Of a stretch of 64,000 nt of DNA, positions 18,777 through 63,396 are shown piece by piece. The position numbers and the translations under genes are program-made. Positions within the stretch are counted from its first letter, which is position 1. The number at the start of each line of letters is the position of its first letter. The stretch comes from a virus, in the IMG/VR virus record IMGVR_UViG_3300034101_005931, positions 22,259-86,258 of that record. One strand, 5' to 3'. The notes below the pieces were generated by a model. That model saw only the letters and a program-made list of their open reading frames with translations, was not told the origin of the DNA and did no database searches.

Positions 18777-18787
18777 CTTTTTAACTA

Positions 18788-51370: not shown

Positions 51371-51374
51371 AATA

Positions 51375-51491
51375 CTAAGACTCCGGTCTTCTAGTAGAGT
51401 AGGGTGTGCTAACTAACCTTCGGATTGGTGTCTCCTGTTCGCCCTGCTTGTCTCTTTTAGGATCGTTCGAGGCTCTCCGATCTCTTATTCT
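51375..51491 (-). ncRNA. Conserved small RNA, copy A
   Basis: Minus-strand transcript predicted from a -10 TATAAT (51498-51503) and -35 TTGAGC (51521-51526) with a 17-base spacer ending GGGTTCCCG. Contains the shared blocks GAGCCTCG, CAGGGCGAACAG and CGAAGGTTAGTTAGC, and ends near a hairpin AAGAC-CGGA-GTCTT. No ORF apart from a 4-codon MIAE. Confidence 0.65.
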
Positions 51492-51758: not shown

Positions 51759-51787
51759 TTGCCGTTCCTTTAAAGTTCCGATATTCT
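51759..51787 (+). promoter_or_regulatory. GTTCCG-type promoter
   Basis: TTGCCG-N17-TATTCT, spacer ending AAGTTCCGA; ATG 5 bases later. Confidence 0.75.
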
Positions 51788-51792
51788 TATAG

Positions 51793-52125
51793 ATGATGAA
51801 GATTAAACCTACTGATAAAGTCGAAGTTAAAGTTAAGGGAGAGGGATATGATCGCTACGAAAGCGGAGGCCTCTTCAATAAGACCTACAAAGGTACCTGG
51901 GAAAAGGTTCTGACTAAAATCTCTGAAAACCATTCCTACGGAACCCCTGTAGGAACTGATGAAGATGGAGAGACTGCTACCTGTGAAGATGTTCTTCAAT
52001 ATATACAGGAATGCAATGGTGATGGTTGTGATTACATTTTCCACTTCGAAGTAAAGAAGGATGGAAAGAGCTGGTGGGTCATCGATGATGAACCGATGGA
52101 TGAAGAAGATGTTGACTGCGATTAA
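51793..52125 (+). CDS. Hypothetical acidic early protein
   Basis: 110 aa. Beta-rich first half (KVEVKVKGEGYDRYES), acidic C-terminus (DDEPMDEEDVDCD). No family recognised. No Shine-Dalgarno. Confidence 0.62.
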   Translation: MMKIKPTDKVEVKVKGEGYDRYESGGLFNKTYKGTWEKVLTKISENHSYGTPVGTDEDGETATCEDVLQYIQECNGDGCDYIFHFEVKKDGKSWWVIDDEPMDEEDVDCD

Positions 52126-52140
52126 GAGTTCCGATATTAT
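52112..52140 (+). promoter_or_regulatory. GTTCCG-type promoter
   Basis: TTGACT-N17-TATTAT, spacer ending GAGTTCCGA; it begins inside the previous gene. ATG 7 bases after the -10. Confidence 0.8.
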
Positions 52141-52147
52141 TAGAACA

Positions 52148-52348
52148 ATGAAGATTGACGGAAAAATTACAGGTGCTGTTTTTCGTAACAGCGAAGTGGA
52201 AGCTGGTATCTCTTACACCGGCAATGAGGGTGTGGTGGAGATTAAGCTCAAGTCCGATTTGGACTCTAACTCTTCCTATACCTACGTCTTGTCGCATTCC
52301 TGCGCTAAGCGGTTGGTTGAGCAGATTCGTCTAGCTCTAGACTTTTAA
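52148..52348 (+). CDS. Hypothetical early protein
   Basis: 66 aa. Beta strands with regular spacing (KITGAVFRNSEVEAGISY, GVVEIKLKSD), C-terminal helix. Unknown. Confidence 0.62.
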   Translation: MKIDGKITGAVFRNSEVEAGISYTGNEGVVEIKLKSDLDSNSSYTYVLSHSCAKRLVEQIRLALDF

Positions 52349-52353
52349 TCATT

Positions 52354-52590
52354 ATGACATATACACATCAAGAGGCCCTAGACCTCTTTAAACGTCAGGG
52401 TGAAAGGGAGCGTGACATCATTCGAAGGATTGCTTCCCGGAGACTGGTCTGGCAGGGATACAATGAGATCGCCTCGGCTGATGTTGATCGTGAAATTTGC
52501 AATATCTGCAACGAGTATGAGGGTGCGTTTTCTGAGATCATGTATGAGTATCTCGAAGACTTCCTTCGGGGTTACAAATCGCTTTCCTAA
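52354..52590 (+). CDS. Hypothetical helical early protein
   Basis: 78 aa, charged and helical (ALDLFKRQGERERDIIRRIA), CNIC pair in the middle. Co-transcribed with 52148. Confidence 0.6.
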   Translation: MTYTHQEALDLFKRQGERERDIIRRIASRRLVWQGYNEIASADVDREICNICNEYEGAFSEIMYEYLEDFLRGYKSLS

Positions 52591-52592
52591 TC

Positions 52593-52826
52593 ATGGGCAC
52601 TACAATTACTGATCCCTCCCAGATCTTCGCATACGACGAGGATGGCAATACAATCATTCCCGGTGATATGGTCGTGTATCGCCGTAAGCTATACAAGGTT
52701 GAGTCGATGGAGCATGAGATCTCCAACGATGGGTACTACACCGAGAGGGTAGTCTTGCTTCTGGAACACTTTAAGACTGGCAAGCAAATAGTGGTCGAGG
52801 ATTTTAAGGTTGAGGTTCTAGGTTAG
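52593..52826 (+). CDS. Hypothetical SH3-like early protein
   Basis: 77 aa. IIPGDMVVYRRKLYKVESM has the layout of a small beta barrel. Third gene of the 52148 unit. Confidence 0.58.
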   Translation: MGTTITDPSQIFAYDEDGNTIIPGDMVVYRRKLYKVESMEHEISNDGYYTERVVLLLEHFKTGKQIVVEDFKVEVLG

Positions 52827-52838
52827 TTCCGGTACAAT
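52810..52838 (+). promoter_or_regulatory. GTTCCG-type promoter
   Basis: TTGAGG-N17-TACAAT, spacer ending TAGTTCCGG; ATG 8 bases later. Confidence 0.72.
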
Positions 52839-52846
52839 AATTGGTG

Positions 52847-53146
52847 ATGAATATGAAAATCGCAAACGTCAAGACGCACCGCATTGAAGGTCGTCGTCAA
52901 ACTGGTCACGCTTACTTCTTTATTAAGAATGAGTCAATCGTAGAGAATCTGCAGAATCGACGGAACCGTCCTACGAAAGAGTTCCGGAAGCTTTTGAATG
53001 AAGCTCTCTTCGGTCAGCTGGAATGTACTCCTCATCAGATCGGACGTATTACTTGGTCCCAGCGCTGTGGGTGTTCCTGTGGCTGTAGCCCTGGGTTCCG
53101 TATCGAAGGTTTTTACGGCAGAGATATTTTCATTGACGTTGAATAA
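52847..53146 (+). CDS. Hypothetical early protein with Cys cluster
   Basis: 99 aa. Basic middle (NLQNRRNRPTKEFRKLL) and a cluster QRCGCSCGCSPG that could hold a metal. Unknown. Confidence 0.6.
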   Translation: MNMKIANVKTHRIEGRRQTGHAYFFIKNESIVENLQNRRNRPTKEFRKLLNEALFGQLECTPHQIGRITWSQRCGCSCGCSPGFRIEGFYGRDIFIDVE

Positions 53147-53161
53147 ACGTTCCGGTATTAT
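53133..53161 (+). promoter_or_regulatory. GTTCCG-type promoter
   Basis: TTGACG-N17-TATTAT, spacer ending ACGTTCCGG; ATG 8 bases later. Confidence 0.8.
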
Positions 53162-53169
53162 TATCTGTG

Positions 53170-53331
53170 ATGAATAAGAAAGAAACAATCTACGAAAACT
53201 ATCCCTTCTGGGATGCGTACAAAGCAGTCAAGAACGGAGAGTGGACCGAAGAGGAATTCCATCTCTGGGCTACAACGGTTTGGAATGATGGAGCGGACTC
53301 TTTCGTAGAAATGGGCTTGAACGAAGAATAA
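53170..53331 (+). CDS. Hypothetical acidic early protein
   Basis: 53 aa, MNKKETIYENYPFWDAYK start, acidic and aromatic. MNKK start cassette. Confidence 0.6.
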   Translation: MNKKETIYENYPFWDAYKAVKNGEWTEEEFHLWATTVWNDGADSFVEMGLNEE

Positions 53332-53345
53332 AGTTCCGGTACTAT
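53317..53345 (+). promoter_or_regulatory. GTTCCG-type promoter
   Basis: TTGAAC-N17-TACTAT, spacer ending AAGTTCCGG; ATG 7 bases later. Confidence 0.75.
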
Positions 53346-53352
53346 TAATATA

Positions 53353-53835
53353 ATGAACATCAAGAAAGAGCTTCAGCTCCTCAAAGACACAGGCAAACTC
53401 TCCACCCACCCGCATATCTTCTGTGTGAAGTGTGAGGGGAAAACTACCGCGTTTGGATCTAATCTTCAAGGTAAGATTGAACGTGCAGGAGGATTAGAAC
53501 CTCTTCTCTCTACCTTCGAGTGTCGTGAATGCCGCACCGCTGGTAAGCCCAAGAAGGCTCCTAAAGCTCCCAAGCGTAATAAAAAGGCCACGCGCGAATA
53601 CCGCAAGGTTGAATTGCTGAAGAACCTTCCGAAGATGAACTTTGTTCGTCCTGAGCCGGTGGTCTTAATTAACAACCCCGAGTATGCTGCGATTGTAACC
53701 GCACATGCTTGTCAGCGCCCGGACGTCTTCCTGGACTCAAACCGCTCGTGCGACTTCTGCTCACTCTACGAAGTGTGTAAGGCTCCGAATCGGAAGCTGA
53801 GCTCACAGGGCTGGCAGATAAAGGTTGCCGCCTAA
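53353..53835 (+). CDS. Zinc-ribbon early protein
   Basis: 160 aa. Two cysteine pairs in the first half (CVKC, CREC) form a zinc ribbon, followed by a very basic linker (KPKKAPKAPKRNKKATR) and a second group (CDFCSLYEVC). Likely nucleic-acid binding; possibly a host-transcription effector. Inference only. Confidence 0.65.
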   Translation: MNIKKELQLLKDTGKLSTHPHIFCVKCEGKTTAFGSNLQGKIERAGGLEPLLSTFECRECRTAGKPKKAPKAPKRNKKATREYRKVELLKNLPKMNFVRPEPVVLINNPEYAAIVTAHACQRPDVFLDSNRSCDFCSLYEVCKAPNRKLSSQGWQIKVAA

Positions 53836-53853
53836 TAAGAGTTCCGATATACT
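53825..53853 (+). promoter_or_regulatory. GTTCCG-type promoter
   Basis: TTGCCG-N17-TATACT, spacer ending GAGTTCCGA; ATG 8 bases later. Confidence 0.82.
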
Positions 53854-53861
53854 GATAGGTG

Positions 53862-54074
53862 ATGAATAAGAAAAACAACGTCAAAAAGCAACTCGAAGTG
53901 ATCAACGTCCGCCTGGAGGTCCTGATCAACAAGTGGAACAAGCAGTACGACCAGAACATTCAGGAGCTGTTGCAGCTCTCGACTCTGCTGCAGAACCTGG
54001 AAACAGGCTCACTCGAAACGAATAAAGCGCTCTTGAAGCCTTCGAAGACTAACAAATTTCCGGGACTGTTTTAA
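53862..54074 (+). CDS. Coiled-coil early protein
   Basis: 70 aa; heptads across residues 8-50 (VKKQLEVINVRLEVLINK). MNKK cassette. Unknown. Confidence 0.6.
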   Translation: MNKKNNVKKQLEVINVRLEVLINKWNKQYDQNIQELLQLSTLLQNLETGSLETNKALLKPSKTNKFPGLF

Positions 54075-54075
54075 G

Positions 54076-54104
54076 TTGCCGATCAATAACAGTTCCGATA
54101 TACT
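54076..54104 (+). promoter_or_regulatory. GTTCCG-type promoter
   Basis: TTGCCG-N17-TATACT, spacer ending CAGTTCCGA; ATG 6 bases later. Confidence 0.82.
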
Positions 54105-54110
54105 GTATAT

Positions 54111-54398
54111 ATGATTAAGACACCGAAAGCTAAAGAGTACGGCAAACGCATGCAGGTCATCTCCCACATGTACCTCAACAAGAACGCTAAGCTGTTCCGG
54201 AACACGCAGTGGGAGGAGCAGGATGTCAAGATGATTTTTGACGACGCACGCAATCTCTATCTCGTCGGATTGTATATGATCGAAGGAGATTTCGATGCTG
54301 CGATGGGGCTTGCCTCTGAGCTGGATACGCTCGTCCGGGATGAGATTCCGAACTCGGTCTGGAACTACCTCGAGAAGTTTACCATTGACCAGGAATAA
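54111..54398 (+). CDS. Hypothetical helical early protein
   Basis: 95 aa, all-helical (KEYGKRMQVISHMYLNKNAK), acidic second half. Unknown. Confidence 0.6.
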   Translation: MIKTPKAKEYGKRMQVISHMYLNKNAKLFRNTQWEEQDVKMIFDDARNLYLVGLYMIEGDFDAAMGLASELDTLVRDEIPNSVWNYLEKFTIDQE

Positions 54399-54413
54399 GG
54401 GTTCCGGTATAAT
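54385..54413 (+). promoter_or_regulatory. GTTCCG-type promoter
   Basis: TTGACC-N17-TATAAT, spacer ending GGGTTCCGG; ATG 7 bases later. Confidence 0.85.
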
Positions 54414-54420
54414 GACTTTG

Positions 54421-54624
54421 ATGAATAAGAAACACACTGTTAACGAGCTGGCTGACCTTCTGGTTAAGCTGGGCACGAAGAGAAATGGCACCGAGCATGG
54501 TCTGAACTACTGCTGGGCTTATGGTACCCTGACCGCTCTGTTCGATCAGGCACGTTTTAGAGACGCTCAAGAGATCGTCGATCGTAAGTTCGCTGAGGTT
54601 GAGAAGGAGCTTGCTGCTGCTTAA
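54421..54624 (+). CDS. Hypothetical early protein, paralogue of 60696
   Basis: 67 aa. Shares NGTEHGLNYCWAYGTLTALF and DAQEIVDRKFAEVEKELAA with the protein at 60696 (HGTHAGNNYSWALGVMTALF). Unknown family; the duplicate pair shows that this small fold is kept under selection. Confidence 0.68.
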   Translation: MNKKHTVNELADLLVKLGTKRNGTEHGLNYCWAYGTLTALFDQARFRDAQEIVDRKFAEVEKELAAA

Positions 54625-54639
54625 TAGTTCCTGTAATAT
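54611..54639 (+). promoter_or_regulatory. GTTCC-type promoter
   Basis: TTGCTG-N17-TAATAT, spacer ending TAGTTCCTG; ATG 8 bases later. Confidence 0.7.
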
Positions 54640-54647
54640 TATCTTTG

Positions 54648-54848
54648 ATGAATAAGAACAACAACAAAAAATTCCTGATGGACCTTCTGGCCTTTGTCAG
54701 GTTCATTCACAACAACCCGAACATGGACCTTCAGCGGAAGTACTCTGCGATCGTCTCCACGATCGGGCACGACATCAACGGCATCCTGGCTGAAGACCAG
54801 TTCTTCTCTCCGAGGGTGACTGGTTACTCCAACTCTGATCTGATCTAA
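54648..54848 (+). CDS. Hypothetical early protein
   Basis: 66 aa, helical, KKFLMDLLAFVRFIHNNP. MNKN cassette. Unknown. Confidence 0.58.
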   Translation: MNKNNNKKFLMDLLAFVRFIHNNPNMDLQRKYSAIVSTIGHDINGILAEDQFFSPRVTGYSNSDLI

Positions 54849-54849
54849 T

Positions 54850-55032
54850 ATGAGACAGCAAACACCGACCCTCGTCGATCTAGCCAAGCGCCGCTCACTC
54901 GTCCCGGAAGCACCGCACCCTTATGTAGCAGGCTTTCTGGGTGCCTTTCTAGGACATCTCGAACGGACTGTACCAGGAGTTGAGGATGCAATTCGTAAAG
55001 AGATTGCTCGTCTCGAGAAGGAGAAGATCTAA
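54850..55032 (+). CDS. Hypothetical early protein
   Basis: 60 aa. HPYVAGFLGAFLGHLERTVPG resembles part of the protein at 61617 (HTDSLVMGYLKGMLGVMEH). Stop overlaps the next start (TAATG). Confidence 0.58.
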   Translation: MRQQTPTLVDLAKRRSLVPEAPHPYVAGFLGAFLGHLERTVPGVEDAIRKEIARLEKEKI

Positions 55033-55199
55033 TGAAGACTACTAACGATGTCGTCCTTGAGCTCCTGGACAGGGATGCAGAGGCTGAGGAGCTTGAAGCT
55101 CTTGTAGCAGATATCAAAGCCATCCTCTACTCACCCTTTCAGCCAATCGACATGAAGATCACTAACTGCAAGCTGGCGATCGGAGAAGCTGGATACTAA
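55032..55199 (+). CDS. Hypothetical acidic early protein
   Basis: 55 aa, MKTTNDVVLELLDRDAEAEE start, acidic helix then NCKLAIGEAGY. Ends 12 bases before a tRNA-Leu. Confidence 0.55.
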   Translation: MKTTNDVVLELLDRDAEAEELEALVADIKAILYSPFQPIDMKITNCKLAIGEAGY

Positions 55200-55210
55200 G
55201 TAGCTTTCAT

Positions 55211-55294
55211 ACCCAGGTGGTGAAATGGCAAACACTGCGGACTTAAAATCCGCTGCCGATAGGCTTGTGGGTTCGAGTCCCACCCTGGGTACCA
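55211..55294 (+). tRNA. tRNA-Leu(UAA)
   Basis: Acceptor ACCCAGG/CCTGGGT, A73 and encoded CCA, anticodon loop CTTAAAA (UAA), long variable arm, T-loop TTCGAGT. It is the only tRNA in the small-gene block. Confidence 0.95.
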
Positions 55295-55300
55295 AATAAC

Positions 55301-55329
55301 TTGACGATCAAATAAAGTTCCGCTATACT
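55301..55329 (+). promoter_or_regulatory. GTTCCG-type promoter
   Basis: TTGACG-N17-TATACT, spacer ending AAGTTCCGC; ATG 8 bases later. Confidence 0.85.
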
Positions 55330-55337
55330 GATAAGTG

Positions 55338-55679
55338 ATGAATAAGAAAATCAAAATCAACGATCGGACCTCGAACTTCAACATGTCTTCTCTTCAAGGG
55401 TATGTCAAAACGACATATGCCCATCTCGTCGAGAAGCTGGGGGAGCCTGAGACCGACTTCGATAAATCGACCGCTCATTGGACTCTCGAAGCTCCAGATG
55501 GAACTGTTGCGACGATCTACGACTACAAAGAGTACACCACCCCTCTCGGTGAATACTATTGGCATGTCGGAGGTCATAACCGAACCAAAGCCCTGCTCTT
55601 GGTTGAGATCGCCACTGATGTTATTCCTATCACGGAACAAGCTCGTCAATGGAACCCTTATGGAGGAGGGCGCGACTAA
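55338..55679 (+). CDS. Hypothetical early protein
   Basis: 113 aa. Beta-rich middle (TAHWTLEAPDGTVATIYDYK, GEYYWHVGGHN) like small inhibitor folds; MNKK cassette. No family named. Confidence 0.62.
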   Translation: MNKKIKINDRTSNFNMSSLQGYVKTTYAHLVEKLGEPETDFDKSTAHWTLEAPDGTVATIYDYKEYTTPLGEYYWHVGGHNRTKALLLVEIATDVIPITEQARQWNPYGGGRD

Positions 55680-55743
55680 TAGCAACGACCAACGATTAGC
55701 CCCGTATAGAGATACCAACACTTTTTTAGAATAAACTAACGCA

Positions 55744-55926
55744 ATGAACATGACATACTGTCAATTCGAAAACACCCTGCAGGATCTACGTCAGTGTAGG
55801 AATACGCTCCGGGAGGCCGGCTCATGGGAAGAACTAATCGAAGACAAGTCGGAGTATGAGATCCAAGCCTTGAAGGATATGCCCGGGGTGTTGGCTGAGA
55901 TGCTTCGCTATTATGACAACCTGTAA
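55744..55926 (+). CDS. Hypothetical early protein
   Basis: 60 aa, helical (MTYCQFENTLQDLRQCRN). Followed after 1 base by the next ATG. No clear GTTCCG promoter; possibly part of the 55338 unit. Confidence 0.55.
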   Translation: MNMTYCQFENTLQDLRQCRNTLREAGSWEELIEDKSEYEIQALKDMPGVLAEMLRYYDNL

Positions 55927-55927
55927 T

Positions 55928-56155
55928 ATGAAAACCAACGTAACCATCTCGCGCGCGCTCCATGACCACCTGCTCGCGAGCGATCAAGCTTCGCTCCAGC
56001 TCCTTTTCAAGATCCACAAAACCAAATGGCATCTTAGTGGGGTTACTTTCTACAACGTTGGTGCGTGGTATCTGGAATGGATAGATGCAGAGCACAGACA
56101 TTTTCTTTCGCAGCAAGAGTGTAGGCGGCACCTTGTTGTGAGTCAAGTAGAGTAA
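55928..56155 (+). CDS. Hypothetical early protein
   Basis: 75 aa; RALHDHLLASDQASLQLLFKI helix, then an aromatic beta part. Followed by the terminator at 56181. Confidence 0.55.
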   Translation: MKTNVTISRALHDHLLASDQASLQLLFKIHKTKWHLSGVTFYNVGAWYLEWIDAEHRHFLSQQECRRHLVVSQVE

Positions 56156-56180
56156 ACCGCCCTTATTCATCATCAAAAGA

Positions 56181-56220
56181 CCCGAGACTGGCTTCTTGCT
56201 AGTCTCGGGTTCTTCTTTTA
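56181..56220. terminator. Bidirectional terminator
   Basis: CCCGAGACT/AGTCTCGGG, 9-bp stem. T-rich on the plus side (TTCTTCTTTT) and TCTTTT on the minus side, so it can end both the plus-strand genes and the minus-strand small RNA B. Confidence 0.85.
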
Positions 56221-56344
56221 CTCGAGAGGATAGACTTAAGAATGAGACTTCATTCTTCTACCTGAGTACCCCCAGCTAACAAACCTTCGCTTCGTCAGCT
56301 GTTCGCCCTGATTTCTGGTCGAGGCTCACCCTTTCCTTTATTCT
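56221..56344 (-). ncRNA. Conserved small RNA, copy B
   Basis: Minus-strand transcript from the promoter at 56351-56379. Shared blocks GAGCCTCG, CAGGGCGAACAG, CGAAGGTTTGTTAGCTG and GGGGGTACTC; then a hairpin AAGAATGA-AGTC-TCATTCTT. It would run into the bidirectional terminator. No ORF apart from 4-codon MISE. Confidence 0.65.
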
Positions 56345-56350
56345 GATATC

Positions 56351-56379
56351 ATTATATCGGAACATGTTTAAGGCATCAA
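56351..56379 (-). promoter_or_regulatory. GTTCCG-type promoter of small RNA B
   Basis: TTGATG-N17-TATAAT on the minus strand, spacer ending ATGTTCCGA. Confidence 0.8.
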
Positions 56380-56538
56380 CCTATTTCGCGGATAGGTGGA
56401 TGTTTTGCGTATTTTTAAACCTGTGAAGACCGAGACTTAAGTCTACCCCGAGCAGTATGAAAAGGGGAATAGTTCAAATCTCCCTTGAACTATTCACGAA
56501 AAACTACGGCTCCAGGAGAGCTAAGACCGCTTTCTTAC
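56380..56538. other. Intergenic stretch with a strong hairpin
   Basis: No ORF. GAATAGTTCAA/TTGAACTATTC at 56467-56495 is a perfect 11-bp stem with a 7-base loop, followed by ACGAAAAA and no T-run, so it is not a typical terminator. Role unknown. Confidence 0.45.
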
Positions 56539-56566
56539 TTGCTTATCTTTAAAGTTCCGCTATTAT
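56539..56566 (+). promoter_or_regulatory. GTTCCG-type promoter
   Basis: TTGCTT-N16-TATTAT, spacer ending AAGTTCCGC; ATG 8 bases later. Confidence 0.75.
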
Positions 56567-56574
56567 TATAGGTG

Positions 56575-56850
56575 ATGAATAAATCGAAAGACATTAAGCC
56601 GTTGCTCAAAATCAAAAAGCAATCTGATATCAAAAGCTTTAGCTGCTATAAAGAATTTGATGATGATCATCAGCGCTGCGCCTACTGCAAAATCAACGAC
56701 ATCAAAATCGAATTTTGGTGGTATGACGATTTGGCTTGCCTCTATTATTGGAAGGATTCGAAAAAGGCTTTTAAGGATCTCTTAAGCTGCATTGAGAATG
56801 AGGTCTATATGGCGAAAAATTACGAATTGGACTTCCCCGAAGACGTCTAA
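56575..56850 (+). CDS. Hypothetical early protein
   Basis: 91 aa. Cys pair CAYC, aromatic run EFWWYDDLACLYYW, acidic C-terminus. MNKS cassette. Unknown. Confidence 0.6.
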   Translation: MNKSKDIKPLLKIKKQSDIKSFSCYKEFDDDHQRCAYCKINDIKIEFWWYDDLACLYYWKDSKKAFKDLLSCIENEVYMAKNYELDFPEDV

Positions 56851-56855
56851 TTCAT

Positions 56856-56884
56856 TTGCCGAATCATTAAAGTTCCGCTAATAT
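56856..56884 (+). promoter_or_regulatory. GTTCCG-type promoter
   Basis: TTGCCG-N17-TAATAT, spacer ending AAGTTCCGC; ATG 8 bases later. Confidence 0.8.
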
Positions 56885-56892
56885 TAAAAGTG

Positions 56893-57132
56893 ATGAATAA
56901 GAAAATCAAATACGGATTGAAAGTTAAAGGTGAAATTTTTGAAGTGAAGGATATGATGGATGAGTGTCCTTTTGAAGGAAGTGAGTTTGCTTATTTGGCA
57001 GACATTTCCCCTTCTGAAGATGTTGAAGGTGAGTTTGATATTTCCATTATTTCCGATAATGAGGGCTATACTCATTCAACTGCTGATTTTGAGGAGTATG
57101 GAATTACGGATGTGGAAGTAGTTGAGCTCTAA
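56893..57132 (+). CDS. Hypothetical very acidic early protein
   Basis: 79 aa with an acidic second half (SPSEDVEGEFDISIISDNEG). Such acidic small phage proteins sometimes mimic DNA; that is only a suggestion here. Confidence 0.58.
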   Translation: MNKKIKYGLKVKGEIFEVKDMMDECPFEGSEFAYLADISPSEDVEGEFDISIISDNEGYTHSTADFEEYGITDVEVVEL

Positions 57133-57150
57133 TTAAAGTTCCGATATCAT
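57122..57150 (+). promoter_or_regulatory. GTTCCG-type promoter
   Basis: TTGAGC-N17-TATCAT, spacer ending AAGTTCCGA; ATG 8 bases later. Confidence 0.75.
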
Positions 57151-57158
57151 TATAGGTG

Positions 57159-57368
57159 ATGAATAAAGCATATATCATAATTGCAAATAGTGAATGGGGC
57201 GAAGAGCGAATTATGTCCGTCTATAACGATCGCAAAATCGCTGAAAAGACGTGCGCTGAATTGCAAGAAAAAGGTTACGGAGATTGGGATGAGTTTCGGA
57301 TTGAAGATTGGCCCTTTAATGAAGAACTTTTTAGGGCTAATTTGGATGAAGTAGTTGACGAAGAATAA
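57159..57368 (+). CDS. Hypothetical acidic early protein
   Basis: 69 aa. KAYIIIANSEWGEERIMSVY then a helix; ferredoxin-like order of strand-helix-strand. Acidic tail (VVDEE). Confidence 0.58.
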   Translation: MNKAYIIIANSEWGEERIMSVYNDRKIAEKTCAELQEKGYGDWDEFRIEDWPFNEELFRANLDEVVDEE

Positions 57369-57383
57369 TTGTTCCGCTAATAT
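57355..57383 (+). promoter_or_regulatory. GTTCCG-type promoter
   Basis: TTGACG-N17-TAATAT, spacer ending TTGTTCCGC; ATG 7 bases later. Confidence 0.8.
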
Positions 57384-57390
57384 TATAGGT

Positions 57391-57654
57391 ATGATGAATA
57401 AAGAATTCAAATTGAAGATGGCGAAATATTTTGAGTCCGATTATGAGAATATGAAAGGAGAGGATGGAAGGATAGAAATTTTTAATAGTTATGGAGGTGT
57501 GGAGGAAGTGTTGAGTAAGAAGAAATATTTTTCTGAATTGAAGAAGGTGAATAGTTTTGAAGATTTGGAAGGATTTTGGGACTTTATTAGCGGAGGAAAT
57601 GCAATAAGTTTCGGATGTTTGATTGATGATATTTTGAAACAAAAGATTGCTTAA
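57391..57654 (+). CDS. Hypothetical early protein
   Basis: 87 aa starting MMNKEFKLKMAKYFESD; helical, acidic. ATGATG leaves two possible starts three bases apart. Confidence 0.58.
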   Translation: MMNKEFKLKMAKYFESDYENMKGEDGRIEIFNSYGGVEEVLSKKKYFSELKKVNSFEDLEGFWDFISGGNAISFGCLIDDILKQKIA

Positions 57655-57675
57655 GCTTTTTAGTTCCGCTATACT
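57647..57675 (+). promoter_or_regulatory. GTTCCG-type promoter
   Basis: TTGCTT-N17-TATACT, spacer ending TAGTTCCGC; ATG 8 bases later. Confidence 0.8.
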
Positions 57676-57683
57676 GTTATCTG

Positions 57684-57839
57684 ATGAATAAGAAAATTAC
57701 AATCACGCTCGAGTTGGACGCAATTGCAGTTGGTAAGATTGAGGCGGCTGCTGAAGGAGATATCGCTTCTCTTCTCGAGAGCGAGATAAACGAGAATCCA
57801 GACGCGTTTATTGAAATGATGGGGTACGATAATTGGTAG
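57684..57839 (+). CDS. Hypothetical acidic early protein
   Basis: 51 aa; MNKKITITLELDAIAVGKIE start, acidic second half. Unknown. Confidence 0.58.
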   Translation: MNKKITITLELDAIAVGKIEAAAEGDIASLLESEINENPDAFIEMMGYDNW

Positions 57840-57868
57840 TTGACCTACCATTACAGTTCCGATATACT
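57840..57868 (+). promoter_or_regulatory. GTTCCG-type promoter
   Basis: TTGACC-N17-TATACT, spacer ending CAGTTCCGA; ATG 9 bases later. Confidence 0.85.
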
Positions 57869-57877
57869 TAACGAGTA

Positions 57878-58072
57878 ATGAGAATCAAAATTACTAAAGG
57901 TTGTGAGGTTGAGTCTTGGTCAGGTCGTTATGACGGACCTCTTGTCAGGATCAAAAAAGGGGATGTGTTTGAGGTTGAGGATGAGGATGTTGATGATGAC
58001 AACTACTCTCATATTGGGGATGATGGGTATCCCAATTTGTGGATCCCAAAAGAGAATTGTGTTGTCCTTTAA
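57878..58072 (+). CDS. Hypothetical SH3-like acidic early protein
   Basis: 64 aa. VRIKKGDVFEVEDEDVDDDN and LWIPKENCVVL suggest a small beta barrel with an acidic loop. Confidence 0.58.
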   Translation: MRIKITKGCEVESWSGRYDGPLVRIKKGDVFEVEDEDVDDDNYSHIGDDGYPNLWIPKENCVVL

Positions 58073-58090
58073 TTAAAGTTCCGCTATTAT
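58062..58090 (+). promoter_or_regulatory. GTTCCG-type promoter
   Basis: TTGTCC-N17-TATTAT, spacer ending AAGTTCCGC; ATG 7 bases later. Confidence 0.75.
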
Positions 58091-58097
58091 TAGAACA

Positions 58098-58223
58098 ATG
58101 AAAGCACAACTGACCCAGTACGAATGTTTGAAGCTGATCCGTAAGCCGACTCTCGGCCGCGGTCCGGTCTTTAAAGACAAAACCAAATACAACCGCAAAC
58201 AAAAGCACAAAAGGAGCTGGTAA
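58098..58223 (+). CDS. Small basic early protein
   Basis: 41 aa, very basic (KDKTKYNRKQKHKRSW). Stop overlaps the next start (TAATG). Confidence 0.55.
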   Translation: MKAQLTQYECLKLIRKPTLGRGPVFKDKTKYNRKQKHKRSW

Positions 58224-58369
58224 TGAAAGAGATTGTTTACCTCAAGTCCGATAAGGACGTTGTAGATTTCATCGAGAAGAATAGAGCTCAGGCCCAGGCT
58301 GAGGCCGTAATGGGTGTCATGCTCTGGCTGTCTGCTGAGAGCATCATGGTAGAGGTTTGGAAGAATTAA
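58223..58369 (+). CDS. Hypothetical small early protein
   Basis: 48 aa, MKEIVYLKSDKDVVDFIEKN start; Ala/Met-rich helix (AEAVMGVMLWLSAESIM) is amphipathic. Translationally coupled to 58098. Confidence 0.55.
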   Translation: MKEIVYLKSDKDVVDFIEKNRAQAQAEAVMGVMLWLSAESIMVEVWKN

Positions 58370-58377
58370 ACTTTTCC

Positions 58378-58406
58378 TTGCCGTTCCTGAGAGGTTCAAC
58401 CATAAT
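58378..58406 (+). promoter_or_regulatory. GTTCC-type promoter variant
   Basis: TTGCCG-N17-CATAAT, spacer ending GGTTCAAC; ATG 12 bases later, the longest gap of the set. Confidence 0.6.
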
Positions 58407-58418
58407 CATTTTTGCAAT

Positions 58419-58757
58419 ATGAGTACCGCAACTGAAACAATGCCGAAGACGCGCAGCGTCAAGGCCAGCACGCCTGAGAAGGCGAAGAAGGAGACGACTC
58501 CCAAGCTCGTCTGTAACGTGACGGGTGTTGCCCGTTACACCAACGCAACCTACTTGGCTAACAAAGCCAAAGCTCGCAATACTAGCGTGCCAGCTCTTCT
58601 GGCCACGTACGTGAGCCGCCCTGTCGCGAAGCTGCTTCGTGAGGGTAAAGCTGTTGCTGAGATCCAAGGCATCTTGGGTGTCACCTACAACAGCCCGCTC
58701 GCCGATACCAGCGCTGAGGATATCCTCCGCTTGAACGGTAAGCAAAAGCGTAGCTAA
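58419..58757 (+). CDS. DNA-binding-like protein, paralogue of 58794
   Basis: 112 aa. Basic N-terminus (PKTRSVKASTPEKAKKE), then KLVCNVTGVARYTNATYLANKAKARNTS-type domain shared with the next protein. It is followed by a GC-rich terminator, and the high-Lys/Arg content suggests nucleic-acid binding. Confidence 0.62.
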   Translation: MSTATETMPKTRSVKASTPEKAKKETTPKLVCNVTGVARYTNATYLANKAKARNTSVPALLATYVSRPVAKLLREGKAVAEIQGILGVTYNSPLADTSAEDILRLNGKQKRS

Positions 58758-58761
58758 ACTA

Positions 58762-58790
58762 TCCCCGGGGGCTTGTCCCCCGGGCCTCTT
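58762..58790 (+). terminator. GC-rich hairpin, probable terminator or attenuator
   Basis: CCCGGGGG/CCCCCGGG stem with a 5-base loop, then a weak T-run (CCTCTTTCC). It separates the two paralogous genes and ends 3 bases before the next ATG, so it could also control it. Confidence 0.6.
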
Positions 58791-58793
58791 TCC

Positions 58794-59096
58794 ATGGATA
58801 CAATTACTGAAACACCTAAACGTCGAGGACGTCCTCCCGGTACCGGCAACCCTAAGCTTAAGCTTCGATGCCTCATTACCAATAAGACACGTCCTTCCAA
58901 CATCAACTACTTGACTCGAAAGGCAGAGCGTTGTGGTGTTGATCTTGACACTGTCATCAACAACTACATCTCTAAAGAAGCTTTGCATCAGATCGTGGGT
59001 AGCCCGCAGTTCGATGATACAACCAAAGCGCTCTTACTCAAGCTGAACGGTGGTACCCGGACACGTACGAAGAAAGACCCGAGTCTTCAGTCTTAA
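58794..59096 (+). CDS. AT-hook DNA-binding-like protein
   Basis: 100 aa. KRRGRPPGTG is an AT-hook core (RGRP), followed by the same domain as the preceding protein (KLRCLITNKTRPSNINYLTRKAERCGVD). Likely minor-groove DNA binder; a phage or host gene regulator is possible. Confidence 0.68.
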   Translation: MDTITETPKRRGRPPGTGNPKLKLRCLITNKTRPSNINYLTRKAERCGVDLDTVINNYISKEALHQIVGSPQFDDTTKALLLKLNGGTRTRTKKDPSLQS

Positions 59097-59105
59097 AAAA
59101 TCCTG

Positions 59106-59134
59106 TTGCAGGCCTATTAGTGTTCCAATATACT
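59106..59134 (+). promoter_or_regulatory. GTTCC-type promoter
   Basis: TTGCAG-N17-TATACT, spacer ending GTGTTCCAA; ATG 8 bases later. Confidence 0.8.
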
Positions 59135-59142
59135 GATAGGTG

Positions 59143-59301
59143 ATGAATAAGAAATACATCCTCATTGACCTCTATACTGGCAAATCTGAACAGATCCCTA
59201 CTGAAGAGCTTAAAGAAGCTACTTGGGGAATGAAGGCCAAAAAAGGTGCTTTGAAGGTTTGGAAGGGTGAAGAGTATTTGGTAGTTGAGGTTCCTGAATA
59301 G
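59143..59301 (+). CDS. Hypothetical early protein
   Basis: 52 aa, MNKKYILIDLYTGKSEQIPT start, alternating strands and helix, Lys-rich loop (MKAKKGALKVWKG). Unknown. Confidence 0.6.
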   Translation: MNKKYILIDLYTGKSEQIPTEELKEATWGMKAKKGALKVWKGEEYLVVEVPE

Positions 59302-59362
59302 AACCTCTACAATTTAAAAAGAATTGGGCCTCGGCGAGACCGATCCGATTCACAGAGGAGCC

Positions 59363-59402
59363 ATCCGGTCCCTTTAAGAAGCGCTCGAGAGCTTCACCGG
59401 AT
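59363..59402 (+). terminator. Hairpin after the 59143 gene
   Basis: ATCCGGT/ACCGGAT outer stem enclosing AAGC/GCTT, followed by AGATTTTC. Possible terminator of the upstream gene. Confidence 0.5.
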
Positions 59403-59411
59403 AGATTTTCG

Positions 59412-59440
59412 TTGCAGTTCTTTTACAGTTCCGTTAGAAT
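59412..59440 (+). promoter_or_regulatory. GTTCCG-type promoter of the large early ncRNA
   Basis: TTGCAG-N17-TAGAAT, spacer ending CAGTTCCGT. No start codon follows; the structured region begins at once. Confidence 0.72.
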
Positions 59441-59446
59441 AAGTAC

Positions 59447-60165
59447 AGATTTGAGAGAAGGTTCGCTACCAAGAAGGGTTGATCGCCGGAAAAGAGGTAG
59501 TGACGAAAGCGTCGGACCGTAATGGCAAGGCCTCATTCTCATCTTAAAATATCTCCGAGGTAATAGCCAGAAGGAGGGTCTGGCGCCCAAGCGGGGAGAA
59601 TAAAACCTCCAAGATTTCTTTGACAATTTGAGTGCGTGGCGAAAGCCGCGTTAGGGATAGTGCTAAAAAATAACTCGCCCATACAACTACACACCGACAG
59701 GATCAGGCGAAGGTCGGGGAAGCAAGGATCCGCGTTAGCACACGCACTTATTTTCTCTGCGGTCATTGAGGGGTCTGTAGCCCAGGATGGAGGTGATAGT
59801 CCACCGAAGACAGACAGCGACCTGAGCCGTAGACATTTTTTGACAGCGGTGTGGAAAGCCGTGGACACACAGAACCGAGATGTTCTTTGTCGACCAGAAC
59901 ATCCGTGCTTCCTGGGGCTGTTGGACTCTCCGGAGACCCGCCCAGAGCCAGAGTAACGCCTGGTCTGTCAAGACTCTCGAATTGGTTTCCGGTGATCCAG
60001 ACAGCTCTATATGCGAATAGGTGGCGCGGTGAGCTGATCAAAAAACCGGGTTGCTCGTTGCGAGAACAAGCGAGACGCTGTTTTGTTTGCGAAGTAGTGT
60101 CTCGATGTAGCTCTCAAACAAAATAGGAGAGAGAAGGGGTGAAGGGGGTCTTAGATTGCTGTCTT
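59447..60165 (+). ncRNA. Large structured early non-coding RNA candidate (about 700 nt)
   Basis: No credible ORF on either strand. Stems seen on the plus strand: CGTGGC-GAAA-GCCGCG with a GNRA tetraloop, GATGTTCT/AGAACATC around 9 bases, GACG-AAAG-CGTC, CCAG...CTGG near 59950, and a long-range TTTTGTTTG/CAAACAAAA at about 60080-60121. Driven by the same promoter as the small genes and followed by the promoter of small RNA C. Size recalls GOLLD/ROOL-type phage RNAs; family not established. Confidence 0.6.
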
Positions 60166-60168
60166 AGC

Positions 60169-60197
60169 TTGACTGTGCATTAAGGTTCCGATAGACT
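60169..60197 (+). promoter_or_regulatory. GTTCCG-type promoter of small RNA C
   Basis: TTGACT-N17-TAGACT, spacer ending AGGTTCCGA, with no start codon nearby. Confidence 0.8.
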
Positions 60198-60203
60198 GAT
60201 TGT

Positions 60204-60325
60204 ACATTCGAAACAACGCCGAGCCTCGGGCGCACATCAGGGCTAACAGCGGACGACGCGAAGGTTTGTTAGCTGGGGGTACTCGTATAGAATACTTCAG
60301 TCTTGGGTCTGAGAAAGATTTTCAT
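60204..60325 (+). ncRNA. Conserved small RNA, copy C
   Basis: Plus-strand copy of the family: GAGCCTCG, CAGGGCTAACAG, CGAAGGTTTGTTAGCTG, GGGGGTACTCG. GCTAACA and TGTTAGC pair perfectly and enclose the conserved CGAAGG. 3' end uncertain. It lies between the large ncRNA and the 60360 gene. Confidence 0.65.
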
Positions 60326-60353
60326 TGCCGTTAGCGAAGTGTTCCGCAATAAT
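60325..60353 (+). promoter_or_regulatory. GTTCCG-type promoter
   Basis: TTGCCG-N17-AATAAT, spacer ending GTGTTCCGC; ATG 6 bases later. Confidence 0.72.
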
Positions 60354-60359
60354 ATACGT

Positions 60360-60671
60360 ATGATGAATAAAGCTGACACACTCAAAGCGCTGCAATCGAA
60401 ACTCTCTAGCGACACTCGCTGGGCTCAGCGCGCTCTCCTCGCGATCTTCCGCAATCAGACTGCCGACGAGCAGATCAACGCTGATGTAAAGCATCACAAT
60501 CAGATGGGCTTCCGCTGCATGGACTCCATCATCCTCACCAGCTTCGCCAACCAACTTCAGACTCGAGGCTCCCTTTCACCGAAACAGATGAGCATCGTCT
60601 TCCGTCTGATGCCCAAATACGCTCGTCAGCTGATGAAATTTTACGGCGACAAAATTCAGCTGGCGCTCTAA
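60360..60671 (+). CDS. Hypothetical helical early protein
   Basis: 103 aa (MMNK start; the second ATG is equally possible). All-helical, DTRWAQRALLAIFRNQTADE, RQLMKFYGDKIQ. Unknown. Confidence 0.62.
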   Translation: MMNKADTLKALQSKLSSDTRWAQRALLAIFRNQTADEQINADVKHHNQMGFRCMDSIILTSFANQLQTRGSLSPKQMSIVFRLMPKYARQLMKFYGDKIQLAL

Positions 60672-60689
60672 TAACAGTTCCGCTAATAT
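60672..60689 (+). promoter_or_regulatory. GTTCCG-type promoter, weak -35
   Basis: CAGTTCCGC before TAATAT (60684-60689); the -35 position reads TGGCGC. ATG 6 bases later. Confidence 0.6.
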
Positions 60690-60695
60690 ATTTGT

Positions 60696-60908
60696 ATGAT
60701 TGATAAGAACGAAATCCGAACTGCCAACTACTTGTGCGACCTGGCGTTGCAGGTTGGTGCTAAGAAGCATGGAACGCACGCTGGTAACAACTACAGCTGG
60801 GCGCTGGGGGTCATGACTGCTCTCTTCGACCAGGTCCGTCATGGTGCAGACGCCCAGGCAGTGATCGACCGCAAGTGCGCTGAGCTCGAGAAAAATCTTG
60901 CTGCTTAA
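60696..60908 (+). CDS. Hypothetical early protein, paralogue of 54421
   Basis: 70 aa. Homologous to 54421 over its length (GAKKHGTHAGNNYSWALG, DRKCAELEKNLAA). Starts MIDKNE in place of MNKK. Confidence 0.68.
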   Translation: MIDKNEIRTANYLCDLALQVGAKKHGTHAGNNYSWALGVMTALFDQVRHGADAQAVIDRKCAELEKNLAA

Positions 60909-60926
60909 TAACTGTTCCGCTAACAT
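60898..60926 (+). promoter_or_regulatory. GTTCCG-type promoter
   Basis: TTGCTG-N17-TAACAT, spacer ending CTGTTCCGC; ATG 6 bases later. Confidence 0.72.
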
Positions 60927-60932
60927 TTACGT

Positions 60933-61157
60933 ATGAATAAGAACACCTTCAAATTCGAAATCAGCTTCAATCTCAACACCGCGAAAGGCGAGAAGCTCGA
61001 TTGGCGCTCCATCCAAGACTTCCGCGATAGCCTCGAAGGCTTCGTCCGCTCCTGGAACGGTCATGATGGCTACTTCTACGCTTACGGGCCCGGGCACGAT
61101 ACGGATATCGACCCGACCGCAATTAAGGTCAAGCGGGTCAAGAAGCTTGCCCGCTAA
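60933..61157 (+). CDS. Hypothetical early protein
   Basis: 74 aa; beta-helix-beta order (FKFEISFNL, IQDFRDSLEGFVRSW, IKVKRVKKL) like a ferredoxin-like half. Unknown. Confidence 0.6.
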   Translation: MNKNTFKFEISFNLNTAKGEKLDWRSIQDFRDSLEGFVRSWNGHDGYFYAYGPGHDTDIDPTAIKVKRVKKLAR

Positions 61158-61175
61158 TAAGAGTTCCGCTAATAT
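61147..61175 (+). promoter_or_regulatory. GTTCCG-type promoter
   Basis: TTGCCC-N17-TAATAT, spacer ending GAGTTCCGC; ATG 5 bases later. Confidence 0.78.
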
Positions 61176-61180
61176 TGTAT

Positions 61181-61441
61181 ATGATGAATAAGTTCAATAA
61201 AGAAGACTTCCGCAAGGAAGGTAAGTACCTGCTCTGGGGCCCGGAGCGTAAGTTCGTAGCACGCTTCAAGTATAGCGGCCCCTTCACGATGGCTAAGTTC
61301 CGCAAGGAGCTCATCGCTAACCACACCCCCGAGTCTTACTTCGAGGCTTACGACGCAGGCAAAGCGCCCCTCGAGATCCTCAAGGATAAGAACCCCGTCT
61401 GGTATCGCGACACGCTCGAGGCCTTCAAGAACCGCTTCTAA
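61181..61441 (+). CDS. Hypothetical early protein
   Basis: 86 aa, MMNKFNKEDFRKEGKYLLWG start, basic, mixed fold. Unknown. Confidence 0.6.
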   Translation: MMNKFNKEDFRKEGKYLLWGPERKFVARFKYSGPFTMAKFRKELIANHTPESYFEAYDAGKAPLEILKDKNPVWYRDTLEAFKNRF

Positions 61442-61445
61442 GATT

Positions 61446-61592
61446 ATGAGCATCAAAGTCACCGTTGAATCCAATTGGGTGGGCCCTAGAGAGCACTTCT
61501 TCGATGATTGGGGCAATGCTGAAGAGTTCGCCTTTGCTATGAGAGAGTGCCAATACAAGACGAAGGTCGAGGAAGTACTTGCCGGCGAATAA
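61446..61592 (+). CDS. Hypothetical small early protein
   Basis: 48 aa, MSIKVTVESNWVGPREHFFD start; acidic. Second gene of the 61181 unit. Confidence 0.55.
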   Translation: MSIKVTVESNWVGPREHFFDDWGNAEEFAFAMRECQYKTKVEEVLAGE

Positions 61593-61607
61593 AGGTTCCG
61601 ATATACT
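61579..61607 (+). promoter_or_regulatory. GTTCCG-type promoter
   Basis: TTGCCG-N17-TATACT, spacer ending AGGTTCCGA; ATG 9 bases later. Confidence 0.83.
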
Positions 61608-61616
61608 TTAGACAAT

Positions 61617-61826
61617 ATGACAAAGACAGACCAACTCGTTAATGCTCTTCGTGAGCGCTTTGCCACCGACGCTTATCCCGTCACCCACCCTCATACCGAC
61701 TCTCTCGTGATGGGTTACTTGAAAGGTATGCTCGGGGTGATGGAGCACTCGAACGATAAGCTTCTGGACTGCATCGACTACCACCTGCAGGACACCCTCA
61801 AGTACAACGCTACGTACAAGATCTAG
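61617..61826 (+). CDS. Hypothetical early protein
   Basis: 69 aa, helical; DSLVMGYLKGMLGVMEH resembles a stretch of the 54850 protein. Unknown. Confidence 0.6.
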   Translation: MTKTDQLVNALRERFATDAYPVTHPHTDSLVMGYLKGMLGVMEHSNDKLLDCIDYHLQDTLKYNATYKI

Positions 61827-61827
61827 C

Positions 61828-61856
61828 TTGACCGGTCATTAGGGTTCCGGTACAAT
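61828..61856 (+). promoter_or_regulatory. GTTCCG-type promoter
   Basis: TTGACC-N17-TACAAT, spacer ending GGGTTCCGG; ATG 6 bases later. Confidence 0.83.
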
Positions 61857-61862
61857 ATTGGT

Positions 61863-62117
61863 ATGATGAGAAACGAAAAAGCGATACTGAAACTGAAAGC
61901 TCACCTCCATATGGTCTTTGGCCTGGCCAACGATCTGAACGGAGAGTACGGCCCGGCAGCCTCCCTCATGAAGATGTATGGTGAGGCCTTCAACCACATC
62001 ACCTGCGACCTGATGCCCCAGATGGGCATGACCGAGGATGAGATCGTCGATCTAGTCTCCTCGATGGACGAGCTCACTGACCCGAGCATCGTGCGTGCAG
62101 CCCTTCAAAGCGCCTAA
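61863..62117 (+). CDS. Hypothetical helical early protein
   Basis: 84 aa, Met-rich helices (LMPQMGMTEDEIVDLVSSMD). Precedes the 62119 gene by one base. Confidence 0.58.
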   Translation: MMRNEKAILKLKAHLHMVFGLANDLNGEYGPAASLMKMYGEAFNHITCDLMPQMGMTEDEIVDLVSSMDELTDPSIVRAALQSA

Positions 62118-62118
62118 T

Positions 62119-62442
62119 ATGCAAACAGTACGCATCTTCTCACAAGACCTAGACGCTATCGATCGCTCGAAGGGTCAATGGGCCTTCACCTCGGACTGGA
62201 ATCTGCCTCGTAAGTACGCCTTCACCTACTTCACAAACAAGGATGGAGAGAAGGCGGCTGAAGAGTGCTATCGGATCACCAACGCTCCTTTCGAAGCTCT
62301 CAATGAGTTTGAGAAGCATATCGCCGAACTGTTCAGAGCTACCAAGACCATGAGCCTGTCCGTGGGTGATGTGGTGCGGGTGGGCGATGAGGTTGAGTAT
62401 CTCTGCGCCTCAGAAGGATGGCTCTCCCGGAGGTATGCATGA
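62119..62442 (+). CDS. YodL-like early protein
   Basis: 107 aa. AAEECYRITNAPFEALNEFE followed by SLSVGDVVRVGDEVEYLC is the layout of a domain common in mobile-element proteins of the YodL type. Function unknown. Confidence 0.55.
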   Translation: MQTVRIFSQDLDAIDRSKGQWAFTSDWNLPRKYAFTYFTNKDGEKAAEECYRITNAPFEALNEFEKHIAELFRATKTMSLSVGDVVRVGDEVEYLCASEGWLSRRYA

Positions 62443-62570
62443 GCCACGCCGACACCGTCTACATCAAGGATCTGGAAGAGCGGGTTGAGGAGCTTGAGGT
62501 GGCTATCGAGAAGGCTCTCGAGGCTGAGGACTTCGATGAAGCTCGCGAGATCCTAGAAGAAGTTAATTGA
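62439..62570 (+). CDS. Small acidic coiled-coil protein
   Basis: 43 aa, IKDLEERVEELEVAIEKALE heptads. Overlaps the previous stop (ATGA). Confidence 0.55.
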   Translation: MSHADTVYIKDLEERVEELEVAIEKALEAEDFDEAREILEEVN

Positions 62571-62595
62571 CCATCTTTAAGAGTTCCGATATACT
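62567..62595 (+). promoter_or_regulatory. GTTCCG-type promoter
   Basis: TTGACC-N17-TATACT, spacer ending GAGTTCCGA; the -35 overlaps the stop of the previous gene. ATG 9 bases later. Confidence 0.85.
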
Positions 62596-62604
62596 AATAG
62601 CATA

Positions 62605-62808
62605 ATGAATAACGGCAGACCCTTAACGCTCCAAGAGGAGGAGGACTTGTTTAAGCTCCAGCAATCGGCCGAGAAGATGTACTACGCTCTCAAGACGTTG
62701 CTTGAGTCTCGGAAGCTTAAATGTCTGCTCGAGGTTAATGACAAGATGGCTTTCGATCAAGCTAGCAAGGCCATCAAGCTGTACGAAGACAATCTCTTTC
62801 ATCTCTAA
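62605..62808 (+). CDS. Hypothetical helical early protein
   Basis: 67 aa, EEEDLFKLQQSAEKMYYALK; helical, charged. Unknown. Confidence 0.58.
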   Translation: MNNGRPLTLQEEEDLFKLQQSAEKMYYALKTLLESRKLKCLLEVNDKMAFDQASKAIKLYEDNLFHL

Positions 62809-62809
62809 T

Positions 62810-62944
62810 ATGAACAACGAACACATTCAGGCTGCCCTTACTTGGGCTCTCACCTTCACAGGGCTGTTGCTGGTGGCTGCTCTGATCGGACTGGCCGGGG
62901 CGCTCTTCAAGACAGTATGCCATCTCTTCGACATCAATCTATGA
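62810..62944 (+). CDS. Small membrane protein
   Basis: 44 aa with one helix (ALTWALTFTGLLLVAALIGL). Overlaps the next start (ATGA). Confidence 0.58.
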   Translation: MNNEHIQAALTWALTFTGLLLVAALIGLAGALFKTVCHLFDINL

Positions 62945-63147
62945 TCATCAAACGCACATCAGAGTTCTCGGGCATCACGCGCGAGGTTAACCTCCCGGTC
63001 ACCGTCGAGCAGATGGGACGGTTTGAGTCCGGTCTTGAGACGCTCCAGGACATCTTCCCTCACCTCAATGTCGATGATCGTGAGTTCATCAAGACGGGCA
63101 TAACGGCAGAAGAATGGGATCAGATGTTCGCTGAGACCACTATCTAG
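62941..63147 (+). CDS. Hypothetical early protein
   Basis: 68 aa, beta start (MIIKRTSEFSGITREVNLP) then helix with acidic C-terminus. Unknown. Confidence 0.55.
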   Translation: MIIKRTSEFSGITREVNLPVTVEQMGRFESGLETLQDIFPHLNVDDREFIKTGITAEEWDQMFAETTI

Positions 63148-63176
63148 TTGACTGTCCTAATAAGTTCCTTTAATCT
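63148..63176 (+). promoter_or_regulatory. GTTCC-type promoter
   Basis: TTGACT-N17-TAATCT, spacer ending AAGTTCCTT; ATG 9 bases later. Confidence 0.78.
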
Positions 63177-63185
63177 ATACACAAT

Positions 63186-63359
63186 ATGAAAATCGCTCTC
63201 TTAATCCTTCTGGTCATTGCCATCTTAATCGCTGGCCCGCTCCTCACCATCTGGGCCCTCAACACGGTCTTCCCGGTCTTGAACATCCCCTTCAGCTTCT
63301 GGACGTGGCTGGCAGTGATTGTGCTCCAGCTCCAGCTGGTGTATCGCCCGTCCAAATAA
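63186..63359 (+). CDS. Two-helix small membrane protein
   Basis: 57 aa, two hydrophobic segments (IALLILLVIAILIAG and FWTWLAVIVLQLQLV). Unknown. Confidence 0.6.
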   Translation: MKIALLILLVIAILIAGPLLTIWALNTVFPVLNIPFSFWTWLAVIVLQLQLVYRPSK

Positions 63360-63361
63360 GC

Positions 63362-63390
63362 TTGAGGTTCATTTACTGTTCCCTTAATAT
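63362..63390 (+). promoter_or_regulatory. GTTCC-type promoter
   Basis: TTGAGG-N17-TAATAT, spacer ending CTGTTCCCT; ATG 6 bases later. Confidence 0.72.
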
Positions 63391-63396
63391 ATAGGT

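Follow-up and report, generated by a model that had tools for sequence, protein, structure and literature searches.

A probable stand-alone gene for a large structured RNA in the early gene cluster of a phage and its homologue in a second phage contig

What does a phage encode in a part of its early gene cluster that begins with a promoter and continues without an evident protein? Positions 59412-60165 of the window, by which we mean the whole stretch of 64,000 nucleotides analyzed here, raise this question. The window is part of an 86-kb phage genome fragment that carries 21 tRNA genes and a tmRNA (Rfam). To our knowledge, very large phage RNAs fall into few described classes, and for no class has the function been settled. 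GOLLD is a closed 14-mer RNA nanocage, and ROOL is an RNA-only homo-oligomeric nanocage. Both were shown in 2025 to form cages of RNA only, and the function of each is unsettled (PMC12286853).

An initial annotation of the locus proposed a large structured non-coding RNA. Our analysis supports that proposal: a homologue shares no reading frame with the RNA, and one helix shows compensatory changes. We conclude that window positions 59447-60124 (+) are very probably a stand-alone RNA gene of the phage, about 680 nt long, whose product is the RNA itself.

Extent and domain map of the RNA gene

The gene is headed by a GTTCCG-type promoter with no ATG after it, as the initial annotation had described. 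We inferred the start of the RNA from the ATG spacing in sister early genes. The three modules conserved in the homologue (M1, M2, and M3) and the parts between them are as follows.

59412-59440, + strand: promoter of the large RNA, TTGCAG-N17-TAGAAT with GTTCCG in the spacer, sigma70-type
59447-60124, + strand: large RNA, with a predicted start at 59447-59449; 60124 is the end of the conserved core
59449-59540, + strand: variable 5' domain, with stems GCUACC/GGUAGU and GACG-AAAG-CGUC
59541-59615, + strand: module M1, 75 nt, with hairpin GCCAGA(AGGAGGG)UCUGGC inside UCUCCG/CGGRGA in the consensus fold
59616-59755, + strand: U-rich linker and long-stem domain, AGUGCGU/ACGCACU, with a GAAA tetraloop
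59757-59832, + strand: module M2, two 17-nt arms pairing CUGCGG/CCGUAG around a hairpin
59833-59963, + strand: variable region between M2 and M3, containing an 8-bp perfect hairpin (59879-59903) and alignable only in short motifs
59964-60124, + strand: module M3, the conserved 3' domain, 161 columns
60000-60007/60031-60039, + strand: M3 helix with three compensatory pairs, one G-C/G-U change, and zero broken pairs
60071-60124, + strand: M3 terminal stem (60071-60077/60098-60104) and proposed pseudoknot, pairs intact in both sequences
60080-60084/60120-60124, + strand: proposed M3 pseudoknot, GUUUU/AAAAU; AAAAC in the relative changes G-U to G-C

The individual stems reported earlier could all be located: the AAAG-loop stem is the GACG/CGUC hairpin at 59502-59513, the GAAA-loop stem is a 7-bp hairpin at 59634-59651, the 8-bp perfect hairpin is the one listed above, and the 9-bp long-range pairing near the 3' end joins GUUUUGUUUG and CAAACAAAAU (60080-60089 with 60115-60124) by nine Watson-Crick pairs and one G-U pair. 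Only the last of these is kept in the relative, as 5 bp (GUUUU/AAAAY); the GAAA hairpin falls in a segment missing there, and the 8-bp and AAAG hairpins lie in non-conserved parts. The 9-nt loop of the hairpin at 59879-59903 contains GUCGAC, which resembles a DIS-like kissing loop, although such palindromes are frequent by chance and the region is not conserved.

Coding potential

The locus had been described as lacking a credible open reading frame (ORF). Taken literally this does not hold, as ORFs of 106 and 109 amino acids open within 59412-60165; in substance it stands, since a family search with both found no match and neither has a counterpart of similar extent in the relative, where the longest plus-strand ORF within the RNA is 35 amino acids. 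Within M3, the 32 substitutions are spread evenly across the three phases (9, 11, and 12), and there are two 1-nt indels. Protein coding was rejected on account of the ORFs without family matches, the absence of a conserved frame, the M3 indels, and the phase-neutral substitutions. A conserved RNA without a conserved reading frame, the general mark of a large structured phage non-coding RNA, is what the two phages present.

A homologue in a second phage contig

Searching viral contigs by a combined promoter and start motif yielded a sole homologue, on the minus strand of IMGVR_UViG_3300007216_000219 at about 11542-10926. The large RNA matches this contig with E values of 2.2e-35 for M3 and 1.1e-32 for M1. 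The relative's RNA sits behind a TTGACA-N16-TATAAT promoter (11574-11547), and a downstream gene is common to both phages (window 61175-61441, in a match of 61158-61454 to 10894-10597 of the relative).

Conservation is concentrated in the modules, whose order, M1-M2-M3, is the same in both phages. M1 is identical at 73 of its 75 positions (97%), more than the 67-89% seen in the longer stretches of DNA that match between these phages. Of the two substitutions in M1, one converts a U-G pair into U-A. Both 17-nt arms of M2 are identical. The sequence that they enclose has been replaced, yet it is a hairpin in each phage, with the stem GUCUGU/ACAGAC here and CAUCC/GGGUG in the relative. M3 is 81% identical over 156 nt. 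Elsewhere the two RNAs part company: about 135 nt after M1 are missing at that place in the relative, where only a few bases separate M1 and M2; its 5' domain has two other long stems, AGCAUUAGG/CCUAAUGCU and GGAUGGG/CCCAUCC; and different helices likewise occupy the M2-M3 interval. Both RNAs contain the U-rich linker UUUCUUUGACA-UUUGAG, placed after M1 here and at another site in the relative. By this comparison, the design of the large RNA is one of a fixed core and an exchangeable periphery.

In a third related phage contig, L078, a promoter and start region resembling the relative's is not preceded by the RNA (425-470, - strand). All that is left there is AAACAAAATG-TGGAAGAATAAAAT, which comprises the final bases of the RNA together with the 3' flank. 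This apparent remnant suggests that the whole RNA gene has been gained or lost among relatives.

Further kin were sought in several ways. No DNA match to the large RNA was returned from cultured phages or plasmids, and none to the homologue's RNA from phages; searches with the flanking and large phage proteins found mostly no close kin. A search with the ribonucleotide reductase led to related contigs, none of which carries the large RNA, and the near-identical contig G002 stops short of the region. Viral contigs were scanned for exact patterns from M1, M3, and the small RNAs, and bacterial genomes for those from M1; apart from the one homologue, only chance matches came up, although diverged copies can escape short exact patterns.

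Structure and covariation

Both sequences form every one of the 38 pairs proposed for M3, those of the pseudoknot GUUUU/AAAAY among them (100% of cells paired), whereas slid controls, with partners shifted by 1 to 3 columns, left 33-44% paired with zero compensatory changes. Besides the helix with three compensatory changes, two other helices have one G-U/Watson-Crick change each. With two sequences, the M3 covariation values were equalled in 54 of 500 trials in which the 3' letters were shuffled, and the three compensatory pairs were equalled in 28 of 100 column shuffles; covariation from two sequences is thus support for the M3 structure and not proof of it. A protein-coding gene in homologous phages, or absent covariation, had been named as the observations that would speak against an RNA; the sole homologue has no such gene, and the two-sequence comparison shows compensatory changes in one helix.

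Against column shuffles, consensus folding energies gave z values of -4.5 for M3, -3.5 for M2, and -2.0 for M1. Folded singly, the RNA had a z of -2.3 to -2.4 on the plus strand; the minus strand gave about -0.8 to -0.9, and the relative's RNA -2.0. Neighboring, mostly coding stretches ranged from -4.3 to +1.4, and because one of them reaches -4.3, folding energy is unfit as an argument for an RNA. Chance is instead countered by the conservation of M1 and M3 in a second phage, folding energy alone proving little.

Among those neighbors, the plus strand of 58101-58814 is strongly folded (z of -4.26) across small ORFs, and a strong, G+C-rich, terminator-like hairpin lies at about 58762-58786.

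Comparison with known RNA families

The Rfam check proposed with the initial annotation, for GOLLD, ROOL, OLE, and HEARO, matched none of the four; that annotation had pointed to a likeness to GOLLD and ROOL in length and setting and had made no claim that the RNA belongs to either. A cmscan of both copies against Rfam gave no family match. An intron, a ribozyme, a riboswitch, and a tmRNA-like RNA were rejected on the same grounds. The GOLLD model (RF02032) had no match at an E value of 10 in either phage record. A direct search with the ROOL model (RF03087) also gave no match at an E value of 10, and no control genome matched either, so that its sensitivity is not demonstrated.

Resemblances remain at the level of design. 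GOLLD, like the large RNA, is phage encoded, exceeds 600 nt, and has an elaborate fold, and its stated layout is a conserved 3' part and a variable 5' part (PMC12286853); the large RNA likewise has a conserved M3 and a variable 5' domain, yet its most conserved module, M1, lies in the 5' half. GOLLD is often, though not invariably, near tRNA islands. The large RNA is instead in the early gene cluster, outside any tRNA island, the nearest tRNA gene being a single one about 4 kb away at 55211. ROOL is also phage encoded and of similar size (model of 574 positions), with an elaborate fold that includes a variable linker, a further likeness (PMC12286853), but its genomic setting differs. OLE and HEARO are likewise large structured RNAs, of bacteria; neither kind's associated protein gene was seen beside the large RNA. 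Judged by sequence, the large RNA is neither GOLLD nor ROOL as modelled, and it resembles both in size, phage setting, and the combination of conserved core and variable periphery. It may perhaps work like them without belonging to either family.

Promoters and the early gene cluster

We scanned for TTGACA-N17-TATAAT sites whose spacer contains GTTCCG and counted 30 promoters of this kind at 51.5-63.4 kb, leaving out two weak matches, 57955 (-) and 51748, the latter overlapping a better site. At 26 of the 30, an ATG lies 6-10 nt past the -10 box. The four exceptions are the promoter of the large RNA (59412) and those at 60169, 56379 (-), and 51526 (-), each of which heads one copy of a separate small RNA. 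As the ATG is missing only at promoters of RNA genes, absence of a start codon marks such genes in this phage. Because the ATG stands at or beside the expected transcription start, the early mRNAs look leaderless, and the cluster is apparently a leaderless early regulon that comprises 26 genes or more. The position and promoter of the large RNA imply that it, too, would be transcribed early.

The arrangement of one promoter per early gene, TTGACN-N17(GTTCCG)-TATANT with an ATG 6-10 nt downstream of the -10 box, runs through 51759-63391 (+) and recurs in relatives L076 and L078. The start context of the early genes is often TGATGAATAA.

The small RNAs form a family of about 110-130 nt with three copies in the phage, at 60204-60335 (+), 56213-56344 (-), and 51340-51491 (-), and one in the relative (L077:861-1000, +). 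Each copy is behind an ATG-less promoter of the GTTCCG type (GTTCCC in two copies), and the common core is GAGCCTCG...CAGGGCGAACAG...CGAAGGTT-GTTAGC...TACTC. Those in the window had no Rfam match at gathering score.

Proposed role and alternatives

The explanation that we favor overall, with a probability of roughly 0.55, is an early stand-alone RNA gene whose product is a conserved-core scaffold acting in trans. Within the early gene cluster, host sigma70 RNA polymerase would transcribe the RNA from the promoter dedicated to it. The core of M1, M2, and M3, with its helices and probable pseudoknots, would fold into a compact scaffold, from which peripheral helical domains on U-rich linkers could be gained, lost, or replaced freely. 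The RNA would then work in trans as a structural particle, alone or with host factors, during takeover of the cell, as proposed for GOLLD and ROOL. The scaffold mechanism itself, drawn by analogy, is possible but doubtful; action in trans and the position of the 3' end are what we infer from the arrangement of the locus, and the particle and its target are speculative.

The nearly invariant M1, with its AGGAGGG loop, and the early promoter would also suit an RNA that acts in trans by base pairing or as a decoy, its exposed loops binding a host RNA or an RNA-binding protein, such as a component of defense or translation, and forming no particle. Mimicry of defense RNA by phage RNA has a precedent: phage PhiTE is reported to escape ToxIN in this way (PMC3475682). 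We consider this reading rather unlikely, given that no antitoxin-type repeat array is present and that the only target tested, the 16S anti-Shine-Dalgarno tail, has no excess complementarity to either RNA. The AAGGAGGG loop and the leaderless early genes had prompted the idea that the RNA titrates that tail, but this is not supported, the best site being equalled in 20% and 47% of dinucleotide shuffles.

An element acting in cis, whether a long 5' untranslated region, an antiterminator, or a processing element, could control the downstream early genes by read-through, and a scan from the large RNA to the next promoter (60169) found no intrinsic terminator, so that transcripts may indeed run on; the other early genes are also packed from promoter to stop codon. 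Such a role is disfavored by the next unit, which in each phage is served by a separate promoter (at 60169 here; at 10906 in the relative, 20 nt past the conserved core) and which differs between them, being a small RNA here and a protein gene in the relative. A leader would not usually run to 600-680 nt and keep, well away from its end, an internal module that is 97% conserved, and we regard this account as improbable.

Still less probable is a transcript that strings smaller RNAs together or serves as their precursor, each module being released by cleavage after transcription as its own functional unit. The modular build with U-rich linkers and the shifting position of UUUCUUUGACA-UUUGAG would fit, but the order of the modules is constant and no processing signals were identified. 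That the locus is a decayed gene or chance-conserved intergenic DNA is highly improbable: the variable parts do turn over fast and homologues are few, but M1 has two substitutions in 75 nt between phages whose longer matches are 67-89% identical, and the promoters are intact in both.

Beyond the trans-acting scaffold, the two RNAs may quite possibly be the first two members of a new class of large phage RNA that has no sequence relationship to GOLLD, ROOL, or OLE. Such an RNA would be expressed immediately on infection and would contribute to host takeover as a machine or particle made of RNA, in a phage whose early messages are leaderless. If so, this further, unrelated class would be an independent case of the GOLLD/ROOL type of design, with an early promoter, a compact core, and removable domains, and it would offer a route to asking what large phage RNAs do early in infection. 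The large RNA would then join the small-RNA family and the apparently leaderless early regulon in a single phage.

Other features of the phage genome

The phage-borne tmRNA at 18324-18779 (+) is matched by Rfam at 121 bits and is not reported by ARAGORN, so it probably has an unusual tag or structure. A relative of class II ribonucleotide reductases is encoded at 8436-10748 (-), with 48-49% identity to those of Pseudaeromonas phage KLEP7 and Rhizobium phage RHph_I1_18. The window also encodes a carbamoyltransferase (30442-31893, -) and a fatty acid desaturase (40174-41226, +).
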